64,000 bases of DNA, taken from assembly GCA_003214695.1 (NCBI GenBank), contig QCLI01000004.1, positions 62,001 to 126,000 on the forward strand, written 5' to 3'. This DNA comes from Prochlorococcus sp. AG-412-P08 (lineage in GTDB: Bacteria; Cyanobacteriota; Cyanobacteriia; PCC-6307; Cyanobiaceae). Every line of letters begins with the position of its first letter. Within the stretch, counting starts at the first letter, position 1. A model generated the notes under the pieces. That model was not told where the DNA came from and searched no databases. It was given only the letters and a program-made list of their open reading frames with translations. Positions 6,699 to 60,375 of this stretch are shown in pieces. Both the position numbers and the translations under genes were made by a program.

Positions 6699-7298
6699 CT
6701 ATTCAACCTCACGGCGACCTTCTATGGCTCTGCTTAGGGTTACTTCATCAGCATATTCAAGCTCGCTGCCAACAGGTAAACCATATGCAATTCTTGTTAC
6801 TTTCACAAAAACCTTGAGAAGCCTAGATAGATAAAGACTAGTAGTGTCACCTTCAACACTTGGAGTTAAAGCGAGTATCACTTCTGTTGTATTTTCCCTG
6901 TCAACTCTGTTTACTAGATGGGATATGTTGAGTAAATCTGGTCCGATTCCGTCCATCGGAGAAATTAGACCGCCAAGAATATGATATAGCCCTTTGTATT
7001 CACGGGTTCTTTCCAGTGCTATTAAATCTCTAGAGTCTGCAACAACACAAATGACAGATTGGTCCCTTTGTTGATTTAGGCATATTTCACACTCTTCTCC
7101 AGCTGTGAGATGGAAGCATCTTTTACATTGCCCGACTTTGCTTTTAGCATTCAAAAGAGCATTTGAGAAAACTTGGATTTTTTCCTTAGGTTGCCGAAGT
7201 AAATGCAAAGCAAGTCTTTGTGCTGTTCTAGGACCAATCCCAGGGAGTTGTTCGAATTGGTCTATTAGATGAGCAAGTGGCCGAGTAAAGCTGCTCAG
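6699..7298 (-). CDS. recR: Recombination mediator RecR, apparent near-cognate start
   Basis: RecR works with RecO/RecF to load RecA at gaps. The zinc motif CKRCF...CEIC and the Toprim segment [14 protein letters not shown] followed by [12 protein letters not shown] are intact. The only canonical start in frame is a TTG at 7208, which would delete the conserved N-terminal hairpin. Upstream in the same frame reads [19 protein letters not shown], then [10 protein letters not shown], which is classic RecR. Between this and the in-frame TAA at 7337-7335 there is no ATG, GTG or TTG. A CTG at 7298-7296 gives 199 residues, the usual family length; an ATA at 7316 is another candidate. No Shine-Dalgarno element is evident. 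Gene identity is certain, the start is not. Confidence 0.9.
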
Positions 7299-7413
7299 AG
7301 TTTTGTAGGCAGATATATAGGAATTTAAACACTCTTACGTCTTAAAAGGGAATTTACTAATTCTTATGTAAGTAAGTACATTATAAGAAGAGATAGTTTT
7401 TCTACAGAAAGCC

Positions 7414-57960: not shown

Positions 57961-58539
57961 TTAACTTGAGGCGGGGAACCGTATAGGACCTAACTTATTC
58001 AGGGGCCAATACCTGAAAGTTGCTGTCCCAACAAGGTTCTGTTCCGTTAGAGGGCCCCAGAGATGTGAATCTAAACTGTTATTTCGATTGTCACCTAGTA
58101 CCCAAAGTGAATTAGAAGGAACGATGATTTGGTCCATATCATATTTTATTTTCTCAACAACCCATGGTTCATCTATTAAAGTTTCATTCCTAATTAGATG
58201 GCCATTCTTAACTTCTATCTTGTCACCTGGAATACCGATTACTCTTTTTATTAAAGCCTGGTTAGATTCATATCCTGAGTCAATAAGAATTTGTGGAGGT
58301 AAGAAAACTACTATAGTACCGCGATTGGGATGTTTCCTAAGGAATTTATTTAACTTTGGACTTATTTTCTCAATTAAAAGTCTATCTTTGACTTGCAATG
58401 TAGGTAACATTGAACCAGAAGGAATCCATCTAGGCTCTACTACTTGCCATCTCAGTAATAATGCAAAAAGAATCCAGATTAAAAGCCCTTTCCATCCTGA
58501 GTTCTTTTTTTTAATTTCTTTTTGACTAGAAGATGACAT
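57961..58539 (-). CDS. lepB: Signal peptidase I
   Basis: Cleaves signal peptides of exported and thylakoid proteins. One N-terminal membrane anchor (about 18-34) precedes the catalytic serine in PSGSMLPTL and the catalytic lysine in ALIKRVIGIPGD, followed by GDNRNNSLDSHLWGPL. At 192 residues it is the short cyanobacterial form. It is divergent from menD, with only 84 bases between its ATG and the proposed menD start. Confidence 0.96.
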   Translation of the reverse strand: MSSSSQKEIKKKNSGWKGLLIWILFALLLRWQVVEPRWIPSGSMLPTLQVKDRLLIEKISPKLNKFLRKHPNRGTIVVFLPPQILIDSGYESNQALIKRVIGIPGDKIEVKNGHLIRNETLIDEPWVVEKIKYDMDQIIVPSNSLWVLGDNRNNSLDSHLWGPLTEQNLVGTATFRYWPLNKLGPIRFPASS

Positions 58540-58623
58540 TTAATAATTTGCTGAAAGCCCCAAAAGATTCTCATCTCTGAGAAGATTACATTAGTTACTT
58601 TTTGGGCACTGTCACTATCTCGC

Positions 58624-60375
58624 ATTAATCTTTCTCTTTGCATTCACCTGTTAAGAGCATTCCAGGATAAAGGCCTAGATCATATAGTCCTTTGTCCTGG
58701 GAGTCGATCATCGCCACTTGCTTTGGCAGCTGGTGGCCTAGAGGAAGAATTTGGATTAAATCTATACAACGCTATCGATGAAAGGTCAGCCGCATTTTTG
58801 GCTTTAGGTATAGCTACAGGTTCTGGGAAAGCAGCAATTGTCATAACCACCTCTGGAACTGCTGTAGCAAATCTTTTGCCTGCAGCTGTGGAAGCTGACA
58901 GGTCTTGTCATTCAATTATTTTTGTCACTGCTGATAGACCTTATAGATTAAAAGGATGCGGAGCTAATCAAACAGTTAACCAAGAAGAATTTCTAAGATC
59001 AGTATGTAGAGATGTTTTTCAAGGGCCATCTGAGGGGATTCATGTGCTTTCCATTGATGAAGCAATTTCTCTTGGCGGAGAAGTCTGGGATAAGACTCAT
59101 TCTTGCCCTGGCCCTGTACATTTTAATATTCCAATCGAAGAGCCTTTGTTCCCAACGCATTCAGAACAAAAGAAGGTTTGGAATGGAATAGATAGTCAGG
59201 TTTTGAAAGATAACAGTTTTAGAAAAAATCCTATTGAGATGTCTAAAGAGAATGAAGTTGTTTCATTTCCTGATTTAGATCCATTTAGTTTTGGGATAAT
59301 TCACGTAGGTCCTTGGAGAGGAAAGCCTAGTGATTTAGAGAAATTTAGAAACTCTCTTCGTGTTTTTCATTCTTTATCTAATTGGCCAATATTCGCCGAT
59401 CCATTGTCTGGATTATCATCAGATCAGCCAGGATTAGTCAATTATTGGGAATTACTAATATCATCCCAAAAACTAGGCTTTGGAAATGATTTGCAGGTTT
59501 TAAGGCTAGGTCCTATTTCTTCTAGTAGAGCTTTAGAAGAATTCTTAACAAAATTCTCAACAAATCAAGTTTTAATAACAGAAGGGGAGCATCGTCCTTT
59601 AGATCCACTTCGCATAGCTAAACAATATTCCTATGGCTTCTCTTCTTGGGTGGAAAATTTCTTGGATAAGCATCCTAATATAACTAAAATTGACAATAGC
59701 ATCAATGCTCAAATGTTATCTAATCTTTCTCTTAAGAGTCGACAAGTTGATATTCTATTAGATGATAAACTTGCTTTTACAGATAAGCTTAATCAACCAT
59801 TAATAATTCAGTTTTTAGATAACTTAGTACCTTCAGATTTACCTATAATGGTATCATCAAGCTCTTTAGTTAGAGACTTGCTGACTTACTCTAAATCAGC
59901 TTTGTTGTCGAGACGGATTTTTAGTTTTAGAGGTGCTTCTGGTATTGATGGAAATATTTCTTTAGCAATAGGTCTATCAAGTGTTCTCGGCCCTATGATT
60001 TGTCTTTGTGGAGACCTTGCATTTATTTACGATAGTAATGCATTATTACTTTCTCAATATTTAAGACACCCTTTAATACTTTTGCTGATAGATAATAATG
60101 GTGGTGGGATTTTTAGAAATCTAAATCTTGATAAATTATATAAAGGAACATTAGAAGACCTATTCATAATGCCACAGAAAATAAATATTTCAGAATTAGC
60201 TTCAGCTTATGGTGTCGCATATAAGGAAATAAAATACCTTGATGATTTGGGAGATGCTATTGAGTGGGGGCTTCGGGTAATTGGTCTAGTAGTGATCAGA
60301 GTTCGTACTGATTCAGAAGAGGATACTTTTCTAAGAAAAAATATTGCTGAATCTCTACAGGAATATATTAATTAA
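58624..60375 (+). CDS. menD: 2-succinyl-5-enolpyruvyl-6-hydroxy-3-cyclohexene-1-carboxylate synthase MenD, near-cognate start
   Basis: A thiamine-diphosphate enzyme of phylloquinone synthesis. The catalytic glutamate is in NAIDERSAAFLALG, and the ThDP site is GDLAFIYDSN followed by LLIDNNGGGIF. The first canonical start in frame is TTG at 58723, but the family-conserved VLCPGSRSSPLALAAGG begins before it. The open frame extends upstream through LLRAFQDKGLDHIVLCPGSR with no ATG, GTG or TTG. An ATT at 58624, reading I-N-L-S-L, gives 583 residues and the expected N-terminus. A CTG at 58609 and ATT at 58585 are less likely. Identity is sure, the start is inference. Confidence 0.9.
   Translation: MNLSLCIHLLRAFQDKGLDHIVLCPGSRSSPLALAAGGLEEEFGLNLYNAIDERSAAFLALGIATGSGKAAIVITTSGTAVANLLPAAVEADRSCHSIIFVTADRPYRLKGCGANQTVNQEEFLRSVCRDVFQGPSEGIHVLSIDEAISLGGEVWDKTHSCPGPVHFNIPIEEPLFPTHSEQKKVWNGIDSQVLKDNSFRKNPIEMSKENEVVSFPDLDPFSFGIIHVGPWRGKPSDLEKFRNSLRVFHSLSNWPIFADPLSGLSSDQPGLVNYWELLISSQKLGFGNDLQVLRLGPISSSRALEEFLTKFSTNQVLITEGEHRPLDPLRIAKQYSYGFSSWVENFLDKHPNITKIDNSINAQMLSNLSLKSRQVDILLDDKLAFTDKLNQPLIIQFLDNLVPSDLPIMVSSSSLVRDLLTYSKSALLSRRIFSFRGASGIDGNISLAIGLSSVLGPMICLCGDLAFIYDSNALLLSQYLRHPLILLLIDNNGGGIFRNLNLDKLYKGTLEDLFIMPQKINISELASAYGVAYKEIKYLDDLGDAIEWGLRVIGLVVIRVRTDSEEDTFLRKNIAESLQEYIN

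Follow-up and report, generated by a model that had tools for sequence, protein, structure and literature searches.

Where does translation of menD begin in Prochlorococcus sp. AG-412-P08? In the window analysed here, a stretch of 64,000 nucleotides, the frame of this vitamin K pathway gene is uninterrupted on the plus strand from 58555, directly after a stop, to 60375, and its first ATG, GTG or TTG is the TTG at 58723, 10 codons beyond the cysteine of the CPGSRS motif. This TTG falls within the TPP-enzyme N-terminal domain, in the conserved core of MenD. Our frame scan agrees in this with an earlier, sequence-only reading, which had described menD as having no canonical start before a TTG that itself lies inside a conserved block.

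The N-terminus of MenD

Read from a CTG at 58609, the coding sequence (58609–60375, plus strand) encodes 588 amino acids and matches the menD profile TIGR00173 with E=1.1e-98. The alignment begins at residue 13 of the CTG-started ORF, corresponding to profile position 5, and scores 331.3 bits, above the equivalog cut-off of 244.2 bits, which places the protein in the MenD family. A start at TTG 58723 costs 31 profile positions and 40 bits (290.7 bits), and we rejected this codon because the conserved domain would be lost. Moreover, the N-terminal motif LSLSRxNLxxCLxLLxAF is conserved among MenD homologues. Given the profile match and these conserved residues, we regard the predicted N-terminal stretch as real protein.

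A CTG codon at the predicted start of menD

We took menD homologues from a genome collection and from 400 sampled genomes of the family, and examined the DNA encoding their N-termini directly. Codons were numbered by counting back from the cysteine of CPGSRS, which places codon −28 at window position 58609. CTG occupies this codon in 70 of 126 distinct Cyanobiaceae loci, 66 of which lack a canonical start between −33 and −29; in each of the remaining 56 loci a canonical start is present at codon −28 or close to it. Of the loci without any canonical start from the upstream stop down to codon −28, 53 of 53 have CTG at that codon. This count was made without selecting for CTG, whereas the 70/70 invariance describes a set selected for it. 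In-frame stops occur at most four codons upstream of the CTG in 13 of the CTG loci, so the start is not far upstream, and an extended MenD N-terminus was rejected on this ground.

The loci without CTG are equally informative about the position. ATG stands at −30 in 30 loci of HL Prochlorococcus, and TTG at −30 in 13 loci of the genus group g56 and its relatives; in g56 menD with this TTG, codon −28 has decayed to ATT, CTT, CTC or TTT. Two further loci (L133 and L147) have TTG at −29 and CTT at −28. Codon −28 is itself GTG in one marine Synechococcus menD (L139) and TTG in another (L146), and freshwater-type menD has a more distal GTG, TTG or ATG. One locus with two extra codons (L003), in which CTG lies two codons upstream beside a TTG, was scored as non-CTG in these counts and as CTG in the tree. 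Such decay of the CTG beside a canonical start is the pattern that would be expected once a codon no longer has to serve as the start. As in a CUG-initiated gene, the CTG at the inferred start is exchanged for ATG, GTG or TTG among homologues, and no canonical start precedes the conserved coding region.

All other N-terminal codons vary among the CTG loci, the next best reaching 87% and most staying below 60%. The leucines at −15 and −14, though conserved, are written with eight and nine different codons, respectively, and CTG makes up 16% of the Leu codons. On this comparison the CTG (58609–58611, plus strand) marks the predicted start of menD and is conserved as a codon, beyond mere leucine.

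Alternative readings of the locus

The alternative that survives best, improbable as we consider it, is that the CTG is kept as DNA or RNA, for example as part of a lepB promoter, and that menD starts elsewhere or has no fixed start. The signal peptidase I gene lepB (S26; 57961–58539, minus strand; PF10502, E=4.2e-40) is the divergent neighbour of menD, an adjacency kept in most loci, and 69 bp separate its ATG (complement of 58539) from the CTG. Within this interval, 13–34 nt upstream of the CTG, lies an element with the consensus TTGtCCGAaGATcgcATtAGtT (58575–58596, plus strand), which is conserved in AT- and GC-rich genomes at a fixed distance from the CTG across the family and is degenerate in this genome. 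Since its complement resembles an extended −10 box, the element may function as the promoter of lepB; it may also act in the menD leader. A consensus promoter scan of the lepB–menD interval gave no match. In six genomes the element was close to unique to the menD locus, and for this reason we rejected it as a regulon element. The codons flanking the CTG, however, vary freely, with 11 variants after it and 23–25 before it, and the CTG decays near a new canonical start and is replaced by GTG or TTG at the same codon, all of which speaks against retention as DNA or RNA.

It is less probable still that translation begins, in the manner of infC, at the ATT proposed in the sequence-only reading (58624–58626, plus strand). 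The position of this ATT, the resulting 583 amino acids and the 84 bp to the lepB ATG had all been given correctly, ATT is a known rare initiator, and the protein length is plausible in an open frame. Nevertheless, the codon is unconserved even in close relatives, and 16 variants including ATT, ATA, ACT, AAA, ACC, CAA and AAC occupy the position among the homologues; conserved LSLSR lies upstream, and the better conserved CTG stands five codons before. We take this ATT to be an internal codon. ATG, TTG and GTG do occur in sibling genomes, but at or beside codon −28, which backs the CTG against the ATT. A non-canonical initiator in menD and recR thus stands, with the invariant CTG at 58609 in place of the ATT as the menD codon.

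An entry into the frame by frameshifting, or by initiation upstream in a different frame, is suggested by the lack of a canonical in-frame start and has a marginally smaller chance of being correct: the lepB–CTG interval holds no ATG or GTG in any frame, its only TTGs (58547 and 58602) are both soon followed by stops, and no shared slippery site was seen in the menD relatives. Loss of a canonical start through sequencing or assembly error, conceivable for a draft of 52 contigs that is 82.8% complete, is refuted by the sibling genomes: 53 of 126 distinct homologous loci, drawn from many independent assemblies, likewise lack a canonical start, and dozens of independent genomes have CTG at this codon, among them the single-contig G001, G002, G051 and G089.

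A second predicted CTG start, in recR

The sequence-only reading had named recR, a DNA-repair gene, as a second gene without a canonical start, and the family comparison bears this out. In the recR frame (complement of 6699–7334), the predicted gene (6699–7298, minus strand; 199 amino acids; TIGR00615, E=6.6e-78) starts with CTG at 7298–7296, and CTG is found at the equivalent codon in 68 of 68 distinct family loci, the HL strains having been read afterwards. No canonical start lies upstream of it in 59 of the 68, and a stop lies at most four codons upstream in 19. The HL strains carry TTG at exactly the CTG codon. A blind scan of 149 ortholog groups, spanning 240 kb in each of five genomes and seeking all-CTG columns at or before a conserved block, returned exactly menD and recR and no further invariant-CTG start.

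In HL Prochlorococcus (L342, L349, L368 and L369) both CTG starts are replaced, by ATG in menD and TTG in recR. The g56 genomes have lost the CTG start in menD only.

Outside the Cyanobiaceae (L330–L367), many recR loci have no ATG, GTG or TTG before the conserved YTRPLARLIEQ. Counted from LPGIG, codon −15 is GTT, ATC or ATT in these loci, with ACG at −16 in several, and the odd codons often lie 6 nt past AGGAGG (L335, L345, L347); other loci have ATG, GTG or TTG at exactly −15. The recR initiator in other cyanobacterial families may be odder than CUG.

Evolutionary history of the menD CTG

In other cyanobacteria menD mostly has ATG at −30. On a menD tree rooted with these sequences, a quick FastTree reconstruction with many inner forks open from which we used the change count, CTG requires three changes: a single gain, placed at the root of the marine Synechococcus/Prochlorococcus clade, and two later losses. 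A few marine Synechococcus fragments, which the tree does not include, show further switches, to GTG and to TTG. In the tree, the menD of L092, which has both CTG and a TTG at −31, is sister to the TTG-30 group. Along the summed branch length CTG has been retained over about 26 amino acid substitutions per site. The HL and low-light labels of the relatives were assigned partly from what is generally known of Prochlorococcus. Together, these comparisons identify the proposed CTG start of menD as a lineage-wide trait of single origin, shared by this genome and most of its marine relatives. The local tendency that had been suspected in the sequence-only reading is not local, as menD and recR carry CTG starts across the clade, and sequencing error does not account for the trait.

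Proposed mechanism of initiation

The initiator tRNA is standard, with a CAU anticodon, three G-C pairs in the anticodon stem and a 1:72 mismatch. Among the tRNAs recovered from the 82.8%-complete genome, no tRNA-Leu with a CAG or GAG anticodon was seen, and we rejected the idea that the CUG start depends on a changed initiator tRNA or on a tRNA with the CAG anticodon. Because the initiator is standard and no tRNA-Leu(CAG) was found, the simplest account is that fMet-tRNA initiates as a near-cognate, much as it does on GUG and UUG. To assist a weak start there is no Shine-Dalgarno sequence at normal spacing before the menD CTG, and the RNA fold at the start is nothing special (z=0.26 for menD, −0.27 for recR). 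This genome also encodes a tRNA-Leu with the anticodon AAG (L278), which is unusual in bacteria.

We are confident, on the sequence comparisons described above, in the joint reading that menD starts at CTG 58609 (588 amino acids) with fMet-tRNA on CUG, and that this start had one origin, was kept by purifying selection and was later replaced in some lineages. The 30S subunit and the ordinary initiator fMet-tRNA(CAU) would most likely initiate on the menD CUG as a weak start despite the first-position mismatch, yielding an fMet-started and inefficiently initiated MenD. The CTG would have arisen a single time at the root of marine Synechococcus/Prochlorococcus, been maintained by purifying selection, and later given way to ATG in HL strains and to TTG in the g56 group. 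In E. coli, the output from CUG is 0.86% of that from AUG (PMC11497404). We infer low MenD output, and low or tunable expression as the reason for retention; the persistence of so weak a codon points to selection for MenD and RecR levels that are low or adjustable.

Initiation at CUG has been described before but is very rare, and on present comparisons menD and recR represent new, unusually well conserved candidate cases; our literature search found no paper on CTG starts of either gene in picocyanobacteria. The poorest NUG start persists in two housekeeping genes of dominant ocean phototrophs, where a single mutation would yield a better codon, and this persistence speaks for selection in favour of weak initiation. 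A change of start codon from AUG to CUG is reported at a frequency of about 3 in 100,000 (PMC5622118). More tentatively, and with rather less than even confidence, we propose that marine picocyanobacteria keep a small gene set, at least menD and recR, on CUG as a regulatory class, possibly with the menD cis-element helping or gating initiation. recR would perhaps be selected for very low translation, because class-wide it would tolerate GTT, ATC, ATT or ACG as starts after a strong Shine-Dalgarno sequence. The matched relatives with ATG, TTG or GTG provide a natural test of weak initiation. Gene finders limited to ATG, GTG and TTG mis-set the N-termini of MenD and RecR.

Comparison with known non-AUG starts

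In enterobacteria, infC and pcnB start with AUU and are controlled by IF3. Like these, menD is a housekeeping gene kept on a discriminated start, whereas its codon is CUG and not AUU. Within the family, nearly all of the sampled infC genes begin with ATG, and one with TTG, so an infC-like IF3 loop is unsupported, and we rejected the analogy to infC that the sequence-only reading had drawn.

The GUG start of psbC is conserved in cyanobacteria and chloroplasts (PMC9845219). menD resembles psbC in having a non-AUG start conserved over a photosynthetic lineage. However, GUG is canonical and efficient, and the menD CUG is neither.

Bacterial CUG initiation codons are rare, at about 0.024% of annotated starts (PMC11497404, PMC9845219). 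Like them, the menD CTG would be a weak start with a first-position mismatch, read by fMet-tRNA as proposed here. Unlike them, it is conserved at one codon over many species and genera of a family, and it has been naturally replaced by AUG, GUG or UUG.
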